NCBI GenBank assembly: GCA_903813345.2
Contig: CAIIXF020000008.1
Coordinates: forward strand, 12,677,278-12,741,277
Length of the DNA: 64,000 nucleotides
Source: Owenia fusiformis
Taxonomy: Eukaryota; Annelida; Polychaeta; Sabellida; Oweniidae
Direction: 5' to 3'
The notes below the pieces were generated by a model. It was not told the DNA's origin. It ran no database searches and saw only the letters and a program-made list of their open reading frames with translations. This document shows, one piece after another, positions 1 to 57,510 of this stretch. A program made the position numbers and the translations under genes. Every line of letters starts with the position of its first letter. Position 1 is the stretch's first letter.

Positions 1-3000
1 CTTCTGTGCTTCTGGAGCTATCAACGTGCGATATGTTAGAGTATTTCTCATAAGTGCTATATCCATCTTCAATACAATAACACACACAGGGAAATAATCC
101 ATGATTTTATATTCAGAAATAGAGATGACGGTAATTGGAGATTCAATAATGCTTGAAATAACTCCCACAGCATTTTAAAATTCCTTATTTAGTAAACATA
201 TCGGGTCCCCGATGCTAATTATTTGATATTCCACGTAGCATCGCGAAGAGATTGCGAGGAGGTAGATGGGACCATAGTGCATCCCGCTAGAACAACAGTG
301 GTCGTAATTGCTGAACGGGGCACAATTAAATCGACAGTGTAATTGCTTTAATCATATTAACTCTGCCTGATGTTTTCTTATGCTATGCTTCCTGAATTGT
401 AATGGTGAATGATAACATCAGAATGGGTCTCTGGGAGAATATTAGTTTTCCATAATCACAGGATTTGGACTTGAATTTGGTCAAGGTTGCTATTAAATAT
501 GATTATACAATATTAAGAGGACAAATATATAATTTTCATATTTTTATTTAATTATTCTGCTGTACCAATTTCACTTTTATGATTTAAGTATATATGTATG
601 GTACTTCTCAGTGTAATTATACTTGTCTTTTGTACTTTCAAAAAGCCATTCATCAGAAATAAGGTCATTATTCAAATGTTATAATTTTGAAATGAAATTC
701 TGATTTTTGTTACCCAAAGGCTCAATGGTACAGTATGGCATTTCATAGATACAACCACAATACCCCAAAGTCATTATCGCAAAGACCAAAAATGAACATC
801 CAAGAAAATGAGTTTTTAAGTCCTTTGAGAATATATGGGAGGGTTTACTCATTAGAATCTTACTAATTTGACAAGGTTTCTGCAGCTCTGTTTTTCTTGT
901 TCTTTGTTAGCTGAAATACCAATTTCACTTTTACGAAATGTATGTGAATTAAGTGGTTTAATGGTGTGTCACTTTAGGGCACAGTTTAGAGCAATCAGTC
1001 CTATAAGCACAATGGGCAATATATGAAAAACACATAACATCTACCTTTGATGCCTTTATGTCCTTATTTAGATCCTTTTTTCAATTTGATACACCTTTGT
1101 GTAAAAAAACCTTCAAGATCAGGATCAAGGATCTGAACATATTAAAATAATCATAAAAATCTTAAATTCCCACCATTTTTCATTTTTAGTTTTCAGTTTA
1201 ACCTGCTCAAACCACAATGGAGGAAGTACAAGCACATTTGGGCCTGCTTAAGAATTTTGTGGAACAAATCTGTCAAATTGTCCAAAAAATCATTTATCTT
1301 ACTTTGGGGGACTGGAATGCACTTTCCAAGTTATCATAACTGTGGTTGGTTTCTTTATAAAGGTGTGAACCATCAAACACTAAATTACTGAACTATGACA
1401 CTAACGGTCAGAAAGTGGCATATTTTATTAAAAACACCAAGTTAATTTCAATAAAATTCCCAGTATATGGATAAAAATGCCTTAGGGCTTTAGAAAATAA
1501 TTCAAATTTGTTATTTATGTTAGTGTTTGTTTGAAAATGATTATTTCAAAAAATCATAAATCTCCTAGGCAAATCATGTTCTATGTTTTCTTGTACGCAG
1601 TTTAGAAATCAGTATGGGTCTCAATAAATGATACAAATAATATTATCAATTTTCCATTTCTAGATACCCAGAGAAATTTAATGTGTGGGAAATGATGCAG
1701 GATATATATGCAAATGCTAAATAAATGTAATAAATGTTTGCCCATTTTTAATTTTGCATAGGAATGACAAGCTTAGAAAACAATTTGAAGCTACTGAACG
1801 TAATCCCCACATCTGGATAAAACCTTGTTGAAATAATTGTAGCGGATCAAAATAAAATGTACTTTCAATACTTCTCATTAGTGAGCGTTTACAGAGGATT
1901 CTTATTAAGGAAAATGTAAAAAAACGGAGAAATCAATAGTATAAAGCTTTTTGTTAGGATTGTTTTAGAAAAACTAATATTTGTATACCCAAGTTGGGTG
2001 AAGTGCTCGTTTTGTGTGAATGGATAGATTAAGTTCAGTTTCAAATAAAATAATTATTTTCTCAGGCATCTGAGAAAATATGTAGTGATACTTCAATCAG
2101 ATATTTATTAAAATATTTAATTAAAGTTACACAATCGATGGTAAGACTCTTGCTCAATGTTATTCAAAGCATTTACAACACTACTCAATACTATTTACAT
2201 TTGATCAGAAATGTATATTTCATTTTGAAAAATAACAAACCACTTCAATTGAAATGTATACCCCTAATATTATAATATTATCTTTACAGCACTTTTGCTA
2301 AAATTACACAAGAAATATTGCAATTTTATCTCCAATTATATAACATTTGAAATAGATATAATAGCATATCAGATTGATTCATTTCAACCTTTTGTGAAGG
2401 CCACCCTTGAACATGTATTCGAACAATAATTTGAATTCTATTCTGTATATATGTCCATGGAAATCTCTTTATAGATATTACACTCATTGACCAGTATCAT
2501 TAAAAAATCAATTTGATTTTAAAAGAGGAAGGTCTTGAGAAATAAGTTACAATGGCTCAGACAAAACATCTTGGGTTCATATTTCCAATTTTCTAATGTC
2601 ATATAAGTCAATGCACAAATCTAATGAAATTTGGTTCTTAGTGAATGACTTTGCCCAAAACCCTCGAAACAATACACAAAATCAGACATTCAGTATATGA
2701 AGAAAACAGTTGAAAAAACAAGAAAAAGAAGCTAAAAGTGTATATCAAAATTAGGGATAATTTACCCTAAAAAACAATGGTCAATCACCTTTAACATAAG
2801 TATAATTTTGTGAAAAAACAATAAATTAATTCAAGGGTTTTCATGAGGTCTATAGATAAAGAGATATGGGACATTATTGAAGATAGAGCAGATTGTATGC
2901 CTCTTCCAGTATACTTTGTATATAGCCTGACAGTTTGAGCATCTTCTAACATATATAAAGAATGTTGTGATTAAAATATGAATGACGTAATATAATTTAC

Positions 3001-4132
3001 GACTCAATAATTTCAGTTTTTCTGATAATTCAGCTTTCTCTAAGTATCAAACATAAGAATCAAACTTCACATCCAAATTTTAAAAATCAACTTTCATCAC
3101 ACTTCAACACAGCATTGTATACCACAATAGAAGCTGCTTGATATGTTATTGTATAATGATGGAAAATAATCATTACAATGACTGCAAGCCCTAGAGTTGT
3201 CTGGATTAGATATGATTGAAATGGACAGGGGATCCATAAACTTCTGTGTAACATTATGGTACTGTTATGACCCAGGGGCAGACATTTATTACAGATAGGA
3301 GACCCTGTATTGTTCAACTCAACATTCTTTGCCACTTCGCTATCATCATCCATCGATTCAACTGCTTCAAGGTTAATTACTACTCATGTTTTAAAGATCT
3401 CGTTTTTATATGATTTACATAATAAACTTAAATTTAACTTTTTCACTCAATTTATTTTTCATTATCTTAAAATATAAATTTTGAAAATTTCAATCAATAG
3501 ATTGAATTTATAGAGAACAATTTTCATCTATAAAGATGGAGCAAATTAAAAAAAGAAGAAATGGATACAAAATGAATTATATCAATCTGTGAAACATTCA
3601 AATGTCAATAAATCAGAGGAACTCATCTTTAATACATCACAATTCAGTTGATTGATACACCACTGATATCAAAAGGAAAATACAGTTGATTTGCTGTCTA
3701 ACCCAGCCAAGCACATCAAATATAATCTCAGCCCATGATAATACGACCACATAACAAAGCTGAGTTTTTTAATTAATAAAATCAATCAATTATACAGATG
3801 ATATGTTAACCATAGATTATTTAGCCATAAAATACCATCAACCAGAAGAAAATGAGGAATGATGTGAGATATTGCATTGTTTTGAACAACATCAATAAAC
3901 AGGGATAAATAACACGGTGACTTTATCATGACATATGACCAGATTTCATTCTCTTTAACAAATTGCAGCGACATATTTTCAACTTTTTTCCATATATCTT
4001 AGGAAACTTGTAATTATTTTATGGATATGATTTGTTTCCTGGTTGGCATAGTGATTAAATTAGATATTACACTACCACACCTGGCCCCTCCCACAATATT
4101 TAGTTGCAATTAATAATAGGCAATTCTGGGGA

Positions 4133-4362
4133 ATTAGTTGTGTTTTCTAATGTTGTCCTTTAGTGCTGTTTTTATCAGCAGGGACTAGCTCAAGACAGTT
4201 TTCAGTTCCTCTATTGCTGTCCTTTTTTATCAGCAGACTAATTAAAGAAAGTTAAGTTTTTCTTATGTTGTCCTTTGCTGTCTTTTCATCAGAAGAGACT
4301 AGCTCAAGAGTTTTTAAGTTTCTCAAATGTTGCCCTTAGCAGCAAAGACAAGTTCAAGAAAG
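4133..4362. repeat. Diverged tandem repeat, four copies of about 55-62 bp
   Basis: Copies beginning near 4138, 4201, 4255 and 4312 share the order ttgtcctt, tttatcagcag, gactagctcaaga and aagtt, with indels. Divergence suggests an old array. Confidence 0.75.
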
Positions 4363-7084
4363 TGGCACACATAGAGAATATTAGCTCAAGAATTGATCTT
4401 ATACTTGAAGAGACCAATAATACAACCAGAGTTCAGTTATCTATTATCCAAAGAGTAATTATAAAACACGACATTTGAAAGTTTAATGATGGCATGAAGA
4501 TGGAATCCATCACGACATCCAGTAATTCCCGACCCTTGCATGACAACAAGTATGCCTAATTGACCTATTATCCATTTTTACTGATTGCATTGTAGAAATC
4601 TCCAAACAGCTTTGTTAAGCACTAGGTTAAAGTTTAAGTAAAAATAATTTATCGAAGAATTTCTATACATTCTTTAAGCTGATTCCGGAGCATGCAACCA
4701 ACTAAGACCAATCCTCAATATCGACTAAGTGATGAGGAATGATTTCATTATTTAGTAATACGGACAGAAACACAATAGGGATAGACTTAGATTGTACGAC
4801 ACGTCGCGATAATTAAAAGCTTTTAAGACAAGTATGAAAAGGAGGATCCATTTGAGATCATCTAAATCATAAAAATTAGTAAAGTATGAAATATTCATCA
4901 ATGTAAACTGATTTTTGCTCAGGCTTAGTATGTTTATTCTGAAATATGATCATGATTGATCTAACAGAGAAAACTAGTCCAGTATTAGACTCAGGCACTA
5001 AATGAATATACATCCTTCATACCTGACCAAGTTTAAATTATCCACAGATCCGTGACAAAAAAGCATTACTTTTTTCTGAAAATAAGTCACATTTAAAGCC
5101 ATGAATGGGGGAGGGAGTCCTTAACTTGACATTAAACTAGTCTAAAATTATATTTTCACTGCCCAGATTTCCAGTGACCAGCTAGCTGAGAGAGCTTCTG
5201 TTTATTGTAATGTTATCTTTCTGGAACTGTATGGCTTATCTTGCATGTTTTCATTGTAATTTCCTTTATTGGAGAATTACATAACTGTTTTAGCAATCCT
5301 TAATCCAGTCTGAGCAAGGTCCAAGAATGTGCATTATCTTGGTAATATTTCCCTCTCTGATAAAGAGTTAGGTCATGATGACATAATAGCCAATATCGTT
5401 TAATTCTACAATTAGTTACAATGACACAATAGTGAAATAAGAAAAGAAAGAGCATGCTTATACTCAAGGATTTACTCAACAGATTTACTCAACACCTAAA
5501 CTTGTCTCAAAAAATGAAAAAAAAGTATTTTGGCAAGAACGATACAATAGATTACCCTACAATAGATAATACTTAAAATAGGTTGAATGTTTTGTGTATT
5601 CTGTTCAGGGGTCTTGTTATCTTTCCTTTTGCCTGAGCTTCCTTGTTGATTTGATTAGTGTAAAGCATATGCATGAGTGACCTTCCTAAATCGCTCGGTG
5701 GACACCATGAATTCTTTATCACAAGGACTGGAAGATGGAGGAGGTTGAAGACTAGACAAGACAATTTCTTTATCTGTTTATACACTTCGAATGGGTGAAA
5801 CCTGGTAATAAATATTCCCGGGTAAATATGGGATTCTTTGTCTGTATACAGTGCTGACTTGTGATGATGGGACATAATAGGAAATTATGGGATATAATGG
5901 GAGACAATAGGCTATGATTGGGGACATGAAGTAATAATACAAAGTTTGTAAAATGATGAGAAACAATAAAATACACTGCATTGAAACAATACCAAAAACT
6001 GAAAATTGAATTAACTGGTCATACTTGACTATGTTTCCAGATTTGGTAATGTTATGACTCCACACATGAAATATGCCAGCATTTTGGTAATTGAGGTATA
6101 GGGGGAATTTGGTTGATGTGGTAGACTTCAACCCATAGGGGAGACTGACATATACACAGTACATCCTTATTCCATTTTCCATTGTCTGCAGATTCTATGT
6201 TCCCTTATTCCATTATCAGTTCAATCCTAATATAATATAACAGACTGATTCAGGGTCTTTATTTCTGGATGGTTTCATCATTTACTTCAAGTGATTGCAA
6301 TAGATTATAATAATGATGTTGTGAATCTTACTTGGACCCAAGGGCATAGTGCCTTATCTCCACACCAGGGGATTACACTCTACTAAGCTCCCTTATCATT
6401 TTCCCCACTTTCTCAAACCATCCTAAGAATTGATTTTCAGACTAGCTCCCCATCTTAACTCCTGAAATCTTATCATTAGACCTACTCTGGTTACACTTTA
6501 ATGTTGTTTTCAATCCCTTATCAAATTTTTTAATTTGAGTTACTATGGCAACTGGTTATGTGTACATTGCCAGGCAGTTTGATTTATGTGCCCAAATCTC
6601 CAGCAGCTGAAACTAGTAATCAGCTCTGATCATCAAATTCCTTACTAGTTTTTTCCTCGGAGAGCTGGGCTAATATTGTGTATGATCATTTCTCATTAAG
6701 ACTGCATATTTTATCATATGTACAAATGTAAATGTTTATACTATAGCTTATGTCTTACTTAGCAGGAAGGAAACAAAAATATATATGGAATGTTATAATT
6801 AGTAAATTGTATCATTTTTAGATATACAAAAATATATAATTTAGTCTATTATTGCTTATATGTGCTAATTACAGACCTTATATGGAATACCAATGTACTT
6901 TTATTTCACCAGGAATTCTGTCTCCAAAAATTGAATGACAATACTGAACTGCCACCTAGTGAATAATAATGAAACCAATGCTTCAATATTTGATTTCATT
7001 GAAATCAAATCAAAATCAAATATCATTTTCAATAAAAAATATTATAAAACATTTTTATTTTTGTTTGATTAAACTGATGATAAG

Positions 7085-18320: not shown

Positions 18321-18397
18321 CAATTGTTTACTTGTAAAATAGTGAGGCCTGTATCTTGTGCTAACTGTTTCTTCTGTTCTTCAGATGGGTAAGGATG
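18321..18397 (-). CDS. Meis/hth: Meis exon 9: TALE loop, helix 2 and start of recognition helix
   Basis: This 77-nt exon has acceptor tttgttattgtag and donor gtaagttg. It encodes HPYPSEEQKKQLAQDTGL then TILQVNN, and ends with the first two bases (TG) of the tryptophan codon of the WF.N motif in helix 3. These residues are, as far as I recall, identical to vertebrate Meis1 over the whole exon. PYP is the three-residue loop extension that defines TALE homeodomains, and SEEQKKQLAQDTGLTI separates Meis from Prep and PBC. It starts in phase 0, so it accepts either exon 8A or 8B. Intron retention would give a stop directly after VNNW. The DNA-contact residue N51 lies in the next exon, which I could not find in the 18.3 kb to the left. 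Confidence 0.97.
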
Positions 18398-20878: not shown

Positions 20879-23800
20879 GTTGAGCTGTTGCACCAGTCAA
20901 ACCTGACTAATATACACTACGCACATTATAAATTCCATCCATACTAGACCAGTGAAAAATTACCCAACAAGTAGCCACAAGAACATCAGTCATATGTTTC
21001 CATGTAAACCACTAAAGGTATCAATAATGAAATTACCATGGAAACTAATCCACAACTTGAAGGTCAAGTGATCCATAAAGTTATTGGACCATATACATAT
21101 GACATGCCAATTGAGTAAATTATTAATACAATTGTTAAGGATATGATTGTAAGAAAGTAAAGTCATGTGGTAAACAGATACCCAGCTCTCTAACACAAAC
21201 AGATCATACAAGATAACACCAACAAGAATGGACAATGAAGCTAAACCATAAAGAATATAAAAATTCAAGTAAACAAGACATTTCTCATAAGCTTCAAAGA
21301 AAAAAATGCTGATATTACGTGACAAATTAGAAATCAAATGAAAGGGCTGTGCTTCTGTAGGGATGTTGACAGCATCCATTTGTCTTGTCCCCCTATCTTA
21401 TATGTCAGGCCTTCAAGCCCCTAACCAACATCATTATTAATATCAGCAATAAATTTCAATGAATAATCATTGCTTAAACTAGACAAGTGAATAATAGTGG
21501 TGAGAGAAGGTTTGGTAATCTAGGGGGAGAATTGACAGGGTAGTTGGAACAATGACATTTGCCATCAGTACACATCAGTTACCATCAGGAGGAATATTTA
21601 CTTTCAACTGTATGACAGCTTGGAAACAAATGGTACCTTTGAAGAGGTACATAGACACCTTATAGTATGGAAAATACTATAATGAGGGATTTGTGGTGAA
21701 GAATGTAATAGATGACATATTGGAACAACAAGCTATAACATCCACAGGATAGGGCAGCAAGGGCACTGACTGACTGGCCTTTTGTGCTACTACCTTCGAA
21801 GGGAATACAGAGGAGAATGTGGATAATGAAGATGAAACACATAAGATGGACAGATGATGCCTGTGATCTCCAAAGAGAATGTATGGTACACATAATAAGG
21901 AAAAGTATCTATTCAGGACAAATGAGAATGAGAATCAGTTAAAGGTACAACTGCAAAACGGGTAATGCTGCTCAAAGTCCTAACTAATTATGATAAATAA
22001 CTAATGTCCCTGAAGATGCTATTGAGTCCAAAGGTCCACATTTGTAGCCACATTTCAACAACATTGTATTTTGAACAATTCAGACTTGTGCTGAACAGAA
22101 CAGCAAGCATGACATATGATGTATGGCTACCTTTGATGTTTCTCTTGCAGTGATTAGTTTTTGCCATATCTTTTTAAAATTTGATTGAAGTTTCTGATTT
22201 TCTTGCATTTCCAGACAATTTAAAGTGTTGACTACATGTGTATGCACTTTATTTTTTGATTATGGCACTCTCTTATACTGTATTTTACATTTCAAAACAT
22301 AGCCGTCATGACGTTTGACGAATAGCCACACTGAGGTTGGAAGATAAGTGTTCTATTAGGCAGGTTACATGACAAGAAATGCTCTAGATGACAGGATACA
22401 ATTTGTTAACATCCATTCACCTTTCTCCTTTGTTGTACTACGTATAGTGGTGAGTGCACTAGTTCTGTTTATTACAAACTGTATAAGATGACCCTGATGT
22501 TTCATTTGGACATTTACCCCTGAGAGATGAACCATTTTGTACAAGATTTCATATAGAAAGATGTGATTAAGATATAAAGGAATCAGATAATGATATGGCT
22601 AAATTGATAATTCCTAAAATGATGCACCATATTTTTTTAGTTTAGTCTTCATCCTATGTTTGGTTTAGGTTTATTTTTTCTCCTCAGTTATTAGCATCTC
22701 TCTTAATCATTTTGCTGGAGGTCTAGTAAAGATTTTAATGTAGTAAGATGTGAAAGTTTTAGTGCTCATAATGTAGCCTAATGCTTGAAGGTTGTATTCG
22801 ACCTTATGTTACATGCCTTTATCTTTGCAAATGCAATGCTATTATCTATAAGCTTTTTTCAAGAGTGGCTAGCAACATTGCACTGATAACCACATAGATT
22901 GTTAGGGACCGTTATCTGAACACTATATACTCTTACGATAACATGGATAAGTCAGCAATTTTTTCAATGGCGGGTCTCCGTAGAAAAAACAAACTCTTTG
23001 TAAGGCATACGCAATTCTTTCTATCTGCAATACTTGCTTTCTTTGATAGAATCATGATAAATTCGGTTTTTAAAAGCCTACTTAAACATCATTGAAGGAA
23101 CAATTTTTGAAAAATATTTTAGCTCATATACATTTGAGTACAATTAATCTTATTGTTTAAGCCATGTTATCACAGTACAAAGATATCATTTGAAACGTTT
23201 CCTCATTGTGCCAATCTATATTTTGAAATTGAATTTTATCCAATTATGCAATTCAACGGCCGGGATATTTTTTAATTTGGCTCAGTTGAAAAATCACTTC
23301 TTAAAGGTCAAAAAGATTTCGCCTTTCATCTCCAAGTGACTTAATCACTGGGAACGTCCGGAAAAATGCAGACTATTGTAAGATTGGTCGGGAATGAAGT
23401 TGCAAACAGTAGTCTGTTAGTTAATGGACGATAGCCTATAAACAGTCAAATGAGATTGAAACGGCGATGCCAATTCGATATTCTCTCCGAATAATTCACT
23501 TTGTGTGTGATATATGTGACAGATTTACGTTAATATCAAAATATCCTAATTCATTTGGAAATTAAAAAAGAAAAGGCTTGGATTCAGGTCTATTAGAAGT
23601 AATAAGGCTGTGTATGGTTCTACATTGTATTTACTCAGACTGCGGCCAGTAAATCAGTCGCTGTGATTGAAAATCTTCACTTTAACATGCAACACTTTGA
23701 TATTGACACCCAGCTAGATTAGCTAAAATCTAATGTAATTAATGCTTCATAATTTCACAGTAATATAACCTTTTCTTAATAAGAGAGAAGGCGAAAGGAA

Positions 23801-25592
23801 CAGACTCTTTGATTTTGACACATGCAGATTTCATCTCTAAGGACATCTCCATATATTTCGATGCCTAATCTATAATTTTGGAGGAGTTATTTTAAAGAAT
23901 AATTGTCTAATATTTGATCTTTAAGTCAAGGAACAATTAAGAGTAGGCAGAGTCTATCAATCTCATTAATTTTAAAATGTCTTGCAAATTTAGAAAAAAT
24001 CAGATTTTCAATCATTCCATTTTTAATAATTGTAAGGACTGGAAAGGATATGATATGGAATTTATCTCATGAATACCACTTTATTTAATAATTCACCCAG
24101 TGGATAACTCGGGCGTTCTTTTAAATGATGTATTGTCATTTAACAAAATGTTTAAAACAGAATTTGACTTTTGTTCATTTATAAAAGAGGAGATACATTA
24201 GCTGACATAATTGTCGCTAAAGTCAAATATCTTTGGGCAAAGCCTGTCGCTTAGGGGGAGCATTAAATATGTCATAAAATGCCTGCATGTGAAAAGTAAC
24301 AAGTTTTAAGCAAGTTGGGGCAGTTAAGAGTCAATTTACGTCAATCTTATATTCTCTGGGGCTGAACAAGTTTACTAGAAAATACTTGAGACAGATTTCC
24401 AGATCTATATAACTGTTGTACACATGATACGTCTTAATTGCTGTAAAATACATATTTGTGGCATTGTTGTTTGGTTTTGAAATGCTCATATAATTTGTGA
24501 CTGACATTGTACAGCATGTTTTGATATGTGTCACAATGTTGTCAACATCTTCAGTGATATCTGGGGAATTTCTCACAAAAGTAAAAATTATTTAATAGGT
24601 CAAATGTCAAGTCATAAATTATTTTTCTCCATTACAATTATTCCTCACTTCCCGGATCAGGGATTTCAAGTTTCCATAATTCAAAATATAACATTATATT
24701 ATTTCTATGTTTTATATGGTTTCTGAGCAGAAATATAGATATTCATTTCAAAAGGGAGACCATCCACATATGCAATGTTAGAAAGGTATTGACAATTAGA
24801 ATGACTTAAATCATCAAGAAAATAAATATTCCTCACATTTTCTTCTGCATGAGTTACAGAGATTCTTACTTTAAAATGAGACTGTCCAATCTTGTGTCAT
24901 ATGTTACACCGCACGGACAATTGCAGCAGCGGATTACGCATATCAATTGCTGAGAATTGGAATATCTTTCACTTCATTGGCATTTTACAAAAAATGAAGA
25001 CTCGTAATTACAAACAAATGCAATCAGGCGGGAGTGAAGACAAGGGAATCACAATGTTACTGAGATGGGGGAAAACTAGAGGCATTTGTTAAATAGTCCT
25101 ATTCCAAACAATAAAATAAATTGAATCCTGGCTATCTGATTTAACTCAATATAACCTATATTCCAAATCTGTTATATGGAAAATTCTTACGCACCAAGAT
25201 AACAATTAATAACTGATAATATCAGTAATTTAGACTAATTTTTGGACAATGTACTGTCAATATACATCATTATATTGATGAATTATTTTATAATTGAGGC
25301 CCCTGTTTCCATGATTTCTGAAAATATGTGATAATCCACACAAGATCATTGCAAGTACTGCCTCCCTCTCTGATCAAATTATATTATTTGATTAAATTAT
25401 GAGGCATTTAAAAAATGTCTTAAAGTGCTTTAACCGTTGCCACAATTTTCTTAAGTGCTATATCTTACCTCTGTCTACCACGAGTAATGGCAAAATCTAA
25501 TTTATCCTATTTGTGAGATTTTTGCCATTTTACTTGAAATACATACTTAATTCCCAAATGAGATTATAGTCACAAAGAAATGGCAGTTCAGT

Positions 25593-34890: not shown

Positions 34891-35042
34891 TGTTAAATGC
34901 TGGAATAACCATGACCTCATTATATTTGTAGCTGCTTTCGGAAATATGCCTCTTTTTCGCCGTGATTTTGATGTTTTTTCATCACCTTCTTCGAGATCTG
35001 TTGTACATTCGCCCGAACCTAGGCTGTTATCTAAGCCATCAC
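34891..35042 (-). CDS. Meis/hth: Meis exon 8B: second version of the homeodomain N-arm/helix 1 exon
   Basis: This 152-nt exon has a strong acceptor (ccccttttctgctttttaag) and donor gtgagtg. Its phases are identical to exon 8A: it completes the split glycine and ends in phase 0. The peptide runs [29 protein letters not shown], then [16 protein letters not shown] and LFQHLT. The opening GDGLDNS is the same as vertebrate Meis at this exon start. Compared with 8A, the 22 residues from KRGIF to the exon end differ at four places (V to A, L to M, A to S, S to T). Ten of the 18 shared residues use different codons, so both copies look old and under protein-level constraint rather than a fresh duplicate or decayed exon. 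It joins in frame to exon 9. Reading through its donor reaches a TAG after five codons. Confidence 0.94.
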
Positions 35043-35112
35043 CTTAAAAAGCAGAAAAGGGGCACAATTTTTACTTTCTGAAACGTGAAGGATTGCGTTA
35101 GTGGGGACTTAC
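35043..35112 (-). other. 70-nt intron separating alternative exons 8A and 8B
   Basis: The intron starts gtaagtcc and ends ctgctttttaag. Its best branch-point match (ccactaac) puts the branch adenosine at about intron position 15, some 55 nt before the acceptor, followed by a strong pyrimidine tract. Joining 8A to 8B across it would shift the reading frame, so this intron is probably not productively spliced. It acts instead as the 3' splice-site region of exon 8B. Confidence 0.8.
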
Positions 35113-35270
35113 TGAAAGATGTTGGAACAGCCACGCTCGGAGAATATTCGTAGCAACTTTCGGGAAGATCCCACGTTTCTTATTGCGCTTTGAACTTGTT
35201 GAATCGCCATCATCATCGTCGTCCCCTGTTAAGTCCCCCGAACCTATACTTTCTGTGCCTAGCATATCGC
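35113..35270 (-). CDS. Meis/hth: Meis exon 8A: acidic linker plus homeodomain N-arm and helix 1 (first alternative)
   Basis: This 158-nt exon has acceptor gtgtttcag and donor gtaagtcc. It begins with the last two bases of a split glycine codon and ends in phase 0. The peptide starts [16 protein letters not shown], continues through an acidic run (DDDDDGD) and a basic stretch (SSKRNKKR), then gives [14 protein letters not shown] and LFQHLS, which are the homeodomain N-arm and helix 1. The SIGSG plus acidic run and the ILRAW version of helix 1 match fly homothorax more closely than vertebrate Meis, as I recall those proteins. Its codons are more GC-rich than its surroundings. It joins in frame to exon 9 (HPYP...). 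The polypyrimidine tract directly before the acceptor is weak. It lies 70 bp before exon 8B in the transcript, and the two appear mutually exclusive. Confidence 0.95.
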
Positions 35271-35493: not shown

Positions 35494-35712
35494 CATGCAG
35501 TGTCTTATTTCGCTGAAAATTAAAACATGCAAATTTTATATGTAACAAAAGAAGTTAATTCTAACGAGCAAATTATCAATAGCAAGGATCTAGAAATACA
35601 ATTTTATGCATGCACACAATGAAGGAATATGCAAAAACAACATTGCTATCACGAAAGACATTATTTTGCATATTATAAAGCGCAACGATCTAGCAATACT
35701 TTAACACATGCA
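35494..35712 (-). promoter_or_regulatory. Cluster of four UGCAUG (Rbfox-type) motifs upstream of exon 8A
   Basis: On the transcript strand TGCATG occurs at 35707-35712, 35609-35614, 35526-35531 and 35494-35499, that is 224 to 442 nt before exon 8A. At this base composition about 0.04 copies are expected in such a span. UGCAUG is the Rbfox binding element; in animals, upstream intronic sites usually repress the following exon. The regulatory role here is inference. Confidence 0.55.
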
Positions 35713-57377: not shown

Positions 57378-57510
57378 CTGTTTCACTACCATTATCTATT
57401 ATTCCTGAATTTGATTGGCTGTGGGGACCCGGTGTGTTTTCACCTGAATGGTTAGACTGTGTTTCGTCCCGACCACCTTCTGTAGTTGGGAAGTTAAGAG
57501 ATGGAGGTCT
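57378..57510 (-). CDS. Meis/hth: Meis exon 7: linker between Meis domain and homeodomain
   Basis: This 133-nt internal exon starts in phase 0 and leaves one G of a split glycine codon. It is flanked by an acceptor (pyrimidine tract ending ttttccag) and a consensus donor (gtaagta). It encodes 44 residues beginning RPPSLNFPTTEGG, passing through NHSGENTPGPHSQSN and ending NGSETG. The linker is low in hydrophobic residues and contains the TPGP motif seen just before the homeodomain in vertebrate Meis; the RPPS start resembles fly homothorax as I remember it. The split glycine joins correctly to exon 8A (GC) or 8B (GT). Reading through the donor adds six residues and then a TGA, a possible truncated form without a homeodomain. 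The link to exons 8 rests on phase, strand and this similarity, because the linker itself is poorly conserved. Confidence 0.86.

Follow-up and report, generated by a model that had tools for sequence, protein, structure and literature searches.

Tandem and probably mutually exclusive exons for the N-terminal part of the Meis homeodomain in the annelid Owenia fusiformis

We analyzed a stretch of 64,000 nucleotides (nt) from the 498-Mb genome of the annelid Owenia fusiformis (assembly GCA_903813345.2, contig CAIIXF020000008.1, here C8, positions 12677278-12741277; hereafter the window), in which exons 7 to 9 of a Meis/hth gene are located on the minus strand. Features inside the window are given by window position, exon numbers follow the first-pass annotation of the same DNA, and C numbers denote contigs. 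The exon order was set by tblastn with a human MEIS1 query. Exon 9 ends at 18321 within a Trp codon, and exon 10 (FINARRRIVQPMIDQSNRA) lies outside the window at about C8:12667713, as do the exons of the Meis domain, for which we observed PF16493 matches at C8:12764461 and 12753074. A profile search of the genome with PF16493 gave four matches, of which this Meis gene and a single Pknox gene on C10 account for two each. With exon 8B plus exon 9 as the query, 28 matches were found in the whole genome; the best three are 8B, 8A and exon 9, and the fourth-best and those below it, at E 1.1e-8 or weaker, belong to other loci, including Pbx and Pknox. Within the reach of these searches, Meis is single-copy in the genome. 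Its N-terminal Meis domain and TALE homeodomain belong to one gene, from which a single transcript would join them.

Between the common exons 7 and 9 lie two adjacent homologous exons, 8A and 8B, which are equal in phase and exchangeable (Table 1). The G left by exon 7 is completed to a split glycine codon by 8A or 8B alike, and both leave in phase 0. Our reading of the splice sites and phases agrees with the first-pass annotation on the coordinates, the AG/GT boundaries, the shared glycine and the common exit phase, and a recount returned its figures for the segment from KRGIF to the exon end, where 18 of 22 residues are identical and 10 of these 18 are written with different codons. Over the whole exons, 30 of 50 aligned residues are identical, and the proportions of differing synonymous (pS) and nonsynonymous (pN) sites are 0.80 and 0.295; in the 22-residue homeodomain part they are 0.98 and 0.127. 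Because the silent sites are saturated, the copies are old, and because the protein has been held nonetheless, both look ancient and functional. The pair looks like an ancient tandem exon duplication. The two are about equally close to human MEIS1, at 63.9 bits for 8B, which keeps GDGLDNS, and 61.6 bits for 8A, which keeps TGDDDD and VATNI.RAW; MRSW is common to 8B and the Pknox of the same genome. On these comparisons, neither 8A nor 8B is clearly the derived copy. A third copy of exon 8 turned up neither with the exon peptides as queries over 89.7 kb, nor by motif over about 110 kb of the gene region, nor in the whole-genome search with 8B and exon 9. The homeodomain N-terminal exon of Pknox is single, both in the reading frames of its locus (1000-5000) and in the 8B plus exon 9 search.

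The first-pass annotation had described Meis/hth genes as normally having a single exon at this place. Fly hth and vertebrate Meis do encode this homeodomain segment in a single exon, but the rule is not general. Caenorhabditis elegans unc-62, a Meis/hth gene, has alternatively spliced exons 7a and 7b for the same part of the homeodomain; the intestine uses 7a, and neurons, hypodermis and vulval precursors use 7b (PMC3585033). From unc-62, alternative Meis homeodomain exons are a kind already known. By description, exons 7a/7b and 8A/8B are alike in being alternative exons for the N-terminal part of a TALE homeodomain; they belong to different lineages. It is improbable that 8A and 8B are homologous to 7a and 7b and descend from an early protostome instead of having arisen independently: the gene, the domain segment and the alternative use are the same, but fly and vertebrates have one exon here. 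Tandem exon substitution is reported to be uncommon and for the most part ancient, with independent origins in orthologous genes (PMC9741552). In the open-licence literature, seen mostly as titles and abstract openings, tandem homeodomain exons in Meis or Pbx came up for unc-62 alone. A study of Meis gene structures by Irimia and others (2011) may describe this exon in other spiralians. In Spirobranchus, 'Meis A' and 'Meis B' could be exon isoforms or paralogues, and the excerpted text does not say which (PMC6118893).

Transcripts that include both exons, or neither, run into an early stop. With 8A joined to 8B the frame reads ...LFQHLSVMA-stop, the stop being the fourth codon past 8A, and with both skipped it reads ...NGSETASLPI-stop after exon 7. 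Either event truncates the protein ahead of the recognition helix, with the stop within ten codons, and the resulting transcript would be non-productive or would yield a Meis protein without the whole homeodomain. In the gap between the exons, counted from the 8A donor, consensus branch-like adenosines stand at 15 and 27 nt, and AG dinucleotides end at 35 and 39 nt; the branch point for the 8B acceptor (at 70) therefore probably lies just past 39, at a poorer match. For human mutually exclusive clusters, a donor-to-branch distance of <50 nt is a criterion for steric exclusion, and such short distances and a frame shift on joint inclusion are both known mechanisms; the excerpted text names no Meis homeodomain case among these clusters (PMC5740500). 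Consecutive domain matches in other Owenia genes are separated, by eye, by gaps of at least roughly 110 nt. Match ends need not be exon ends, so the comparison is a rough guide; by it, a 70-nt gap counts as short in this genome. The 8A/8B gap fits steric exclusion, in which the short distance would keep the spliceosome from joining 8A to 8B. Together, the early stops and the gap strengthen the mutually exclusive reading proposed in the first-pass annotation. One result weighs against it: folding of the region for an RNA structure switch gave a stability below that of all 100 shuffles (z +1.85), with no structural sign. The gap (35112-35043, minus strand) also contains a CTAAC branch-like site followed by TTTCAG, a possible cryptic acceptor that would extend 8B by 35 nt, out of frame.

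From the sequence, we consider it very probable that 8A and 8B are functional exons of a single-copy Meis gene and are used mutually exclusively. The same two stops would also suit a regulated off-switch, in which joint inclusion or double skipping gives Meis without the whole homeodomain or a decayed transcript, and one exon is a decoy. Homeodomain-less isoforms of Drosophila hth are known and, with its micro-exon 8, represent splicing diversity near the homeodomain in the same family, but as excerpted that gene has no tandem homeodomain exons and its variable exon sits between the two domains (PMC7392893). We regard an off-switch as very unlikely here, because a decoy would not hold its protein sequence at saturated silent sites and because the 70-nt gap should hinder joint inclusion. 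That either exon is a relic no longer spliced in is more improbable still, since both have an intact frame, AG/GT sites and pN far below pS, and since, in simulations with one copy drifting freely, none of 20,000 runs at d = 1.0 attained the observed identity (for the 22-residue part and also for the first 50 codons of 8A), and only 2 and 4 of 20,000, respectively, did so at d = 0.5. The earlier claim that both versions are ancient and constrained is borne out by pS, pN and these simulations.

Mutually exclusive use of 8A and 8B would give two Meis proteins that share the Meis domain and the recognition helix and differ in the N-arm, helix 1 and the linker. Seven homeodomain positions differ, namely 1-3 of the N-arm, 11 (V/A), 16 (L/M), 18 (A/S) and one loop residue (S/T), in the usual homeodomain numbering; the linker differs too. 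The sequence supports the first-pass view that the exchangeable exons vary the N-arm and helix 1 and leave the rest of the protein common. Because Arg5 and the entire exon 9 are common to both versions, a shift of the core DNA site is unlikely, and tuning of affinity or of partner contacts would be the more likely effect.

Table 1. Exons and UGCAUG sites of the Meis locus (window positions) and further tandem exon clusters in the genome (contig positions)
Feature	Position	Strand	Details
Meis exon 7, common upstream exon	57378..57510	-	ends ...NGSET-G; donor CAG/GTAAGT; last base 57378
Meis exon 8A: acidic linker, homeodomain N-arm, helix 1	35113..35270	-	158 nt; TTTCAG before, GTAAGT after; phase 1 in, phase 0 out
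Intron separating 8A from 8B	35043..35112	-	70 nt
Meis exon 8B, alternative version	34891..35042	-	152 nt; TTTAAG before, GTGAGT after; phase 1 in, phase 0 out
Meis exon 9, common downstream exon: helix 2, start of helix 3	18321..18397	-	starts 18397 HPYPSEEQ...
UGCAUG (Rbfox-type)	35707..35712	-	442 nt upstream of 8A
UGCAUG (Rbfox-type)	35609..35614	-	344 nt upstream of 8A
UGCAUG (Rbfox-type)	35526..35531	-	261 nt upstream of 8A
UGCAUG (Rbfox-type)	35494..35499	-	229 nt upstream of 8A
Pbx homeodomain exons	C6:27596064-27596199, 27596415-27596550	+	33/45 residues identical, 12 differ
Pbx PBC-domain exons	C6:27585082-27585299, 27585358-27585608	+	65/72 identical; pS 0.94, pN 0.053; gap 58 nt
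Post2-like Hox, two homeobox terminal exons	C1:17970454-17970975	+	starts 351 nt apart; 50/60 identical
Pou6-like, two alternative terminal exons, end of POU homeodomain	C7:7976218-7976667	-	starts 366 nt apart; 31/40 identical
Pax2/5/8-like, three paired-box exon copies	C248:23559-23756, 23797-23994, 24033-24230	+	gaps 40 and 38 nt; 45-53/65 identical
TCF/LEF-like, two HMG-box exons	C9:24048956-24049172, 24049225-24049414	+	gap 52 nt; 30/38 identical

The Meis exon pair is part of a wider set of tandem DNA-binding-domain exons in several patterning genes of the same genome. A genome screen returned 38 matches to the TALE model and 139 to the homeodomain model (from 150 of 218 candidates scored), 133 of the latter on contigs C1-C12, and pairs were picked from these by eye. 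Three more close pairs were seen, in Pbx, a Post2-like and a Pou6-like gene; apart from Meis and Pbx, genes are labeled by sequence likeness. Further clusters are present in the PBC domain of Pbx, in a Pax2/5/8-like gene and in a TCF/LEF-like gene. Silent sites are saturated or nearly so in all six non-Meis clusters (pS 0.70 to 1.05, pN 0.05 to 0.22), and for the Pbx homeodomain, Post2-like, Pou6-like and Pbx PBC copies none of 20,000 free-drift runs, whether at d = 1.0 or d = 0.5, came up to the observed identity. In Meis, in both Pbx clusters (PBC and homeodomain) and in TCF, joint inclusion leads to an early stop. Each Pax exon has a length of 198 nt, and exclusion there must therefore rest on the tiny gaps.

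Pbx is affected in two places. Its second homeodomain copy is 88% and its first 69% identical to human PBX1. The tandem PBC exon spans positions 50-122 of the 181-position PBC profile, with a GC donor in the first copy, and a PF03792 search gave four matches and one Pbx gene. Meis binds the N-terminal PBC-A part of Pbx (PMC4901127). Neither tandem Pbx PBC exons nor a common Rbfox code came up in the open-licence literature, at the same depth as above. In the Post2-like gene, the first copy has Tyr for Phe after the helix 3 Trp. A likeness to the alternative joining inferred for this locus is found in the antennapedia-type and egl-5 genes of Brugia malayi, where two homeodomain exons are alternatively joined to one 5' exon, but those exons belong to two Hox genes and are not tandem copies of one (PMC11603191).

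Family searches at E 0.001 miss short homeodomain exons such as 8A and 8B, and further pairs may exist. Tandem TALE matches that each lie in their own long reading frame, and are separate genes, were left out, as was one multi-homeodomain reading frame on C262. Read by eye, the match lists for Ets (17), T-box (24), nuclear receptors (66) and chaperonins (60) contained no such pairs. Two candidates were rejected: nuclear receptor matches at C8:15137543-15139439 (+) have different fingers and probably form a receptor with two DNA-binding domains, and homeodomains at C6:27016407 and 27020030, 3.6 kb apart, differ widely in sequence and appear to be separate genes. HMG-box matches at C1:59192898-59193083 and 59196323-59196508 (-), which cover the same profile range 6-69 and lie 3.2 kb apart, may be a tandem pair or two genes. 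Second-finger nuclear receptor matches at C8:9515730 and 9535011 share strand and segment at a distance of 19 kb, and several same-strand, same-segment homeodomain matches lie tens of kb apart. A search for homeodomain relatives in viral contigs gave 33 pattern matches, none confirmed, and a bacterial promoter and terminator scan of the region, irrelevant to an animal gene, gave nothing.

The sequence upstream of 8A is rich in UGCAUG, the Rbfox-type motif. Of 16 sense-strand copies in the window, four fall within 442 nt upstream of 8A, and those at 35499, 35531 and 35614 make up the window's only UGCAUG triplet within 150 nt, both strands considered; any such triplet arose in 4 of 200 simulated windows. 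We counted the motif in the 500-nt flanks of every cluster. Besides the four sites upstream in Meis, it occurs once upstream (-43) and twice downstream (+13, +233) of the Pbx PBC exons, once upstream of the Pbx homeodomain exons (-28), once upstream of the Pax exons (-182) and three times downstream of the TCF exons (+17, +196, +290), and it is absent from the gaps between copies. The five internal clusters thus have 12 sites in 5000 nt against 1.8 expected (P 6e-7); with all seven, the same 12 sites stand in 7000 nt, where 2.6 would be expected (P 1.7e-5). Without Meis, 8 sites remain in 4000 nt (P 1.5e-4), and dropping any one cluster leaves the Poisson P at 1.6e-4 or less. Among 4096 hexamers, UGCAUG ranks first in the flanks of the five internal clusters, with P 5e-7 uncorrected and about 0.002 when scaled by the number of hexamers. 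As controls we took the flanks of 16 single-copy exons of Meis, Pbx and Pknox, in which 13,195 distinct nt contain 7 distinct sites (Fisher P 0.0012 for the five clusters). By these counts, UGCAUG near the exons exceeds chance.

Several points weigh against a shared code built on these sites. The count followed the sighting of three UGCAUG near 8A in a scan for six splicing motifs, and Meis contributes 4 of the 12 sites. Against the control flanks, the Fisher P weakens to 0.010 for all seven clusters and to 0.011 without Meis, and the 500-nt flanks of the Post2-like and Pou6-like clusters contain none. The first rank is obtained with 500 nt; in 250-nt upstream flanks, UGCAUG comes third (three clusters) or fourteenth (five). 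The Meis sites, at 229-442 nt from the exon, are farther away than those of Pbx at 28-43 nt, one UGCAUG lies inside the first Pax exon, and the single-copy exon 7 of Meis is flanked by UGCAUG on both sides (57606 and 57128, minus strand). Exon 7 may itself be alternatively spliced.

A candidate reader of the motif is an Rbfox-like RRM gene at C9:4004842-4007444, with 80% and 78% identity in two pieces. RBFOX activates exons from downstream sites. From upstream it acts as a repressor, of C. elegans egl-15 exon 5B through the upstream intron (PMC3585155) and of FGFR2 exon 9 through an upstream UGCAUG (PMC2880598). With repression from upstream and activation from downstream, the last copy would be favored in either case. 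In Owenia, Rbfox would bind the UGCAUG cluster upstream of 8A and repress 8A, just as RBFOX represses egl-15 exon 5B, and 8B would thereby be favored in cells that express Rbfox. The likeness to egl-15 5B/5A and FGFR2 8/9 lies in UGCAUG in the upstream intron and in repression that favors the other exon; those genes encode growth-factor receptors, whereas here the exons encode DNA-binding domains and the sites are sequence matches alone. We see about an even chance that Rbfox biases the choice between 8A and 8B. The broader proposal, that Rbfox switches Meis, Pbx (in two places), Pax2/5/8 and TCF/LEF together from first-copy to last-copy versions of a DNA-binding or cofactor-binding domain, is tentative and in our judgment somewhat doubtful.

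Variation in Hox cofactors is usually ascribed to the number of gene copies and to their expression. In Owenia, one gene was found for Meis and one for Pbx; each appears to encode alternative homeodomains, with an apparent alternative PBC exon in Pbx besides, so that up to two Meis and four Pbx proteins may come from single genes. Should the UGCAUG code prove real, a single regulator could adjust several DNA-binding domains at once, and differentiated cells that express Rbfox would run a different version of the Hox cofactors without any gene duplication.
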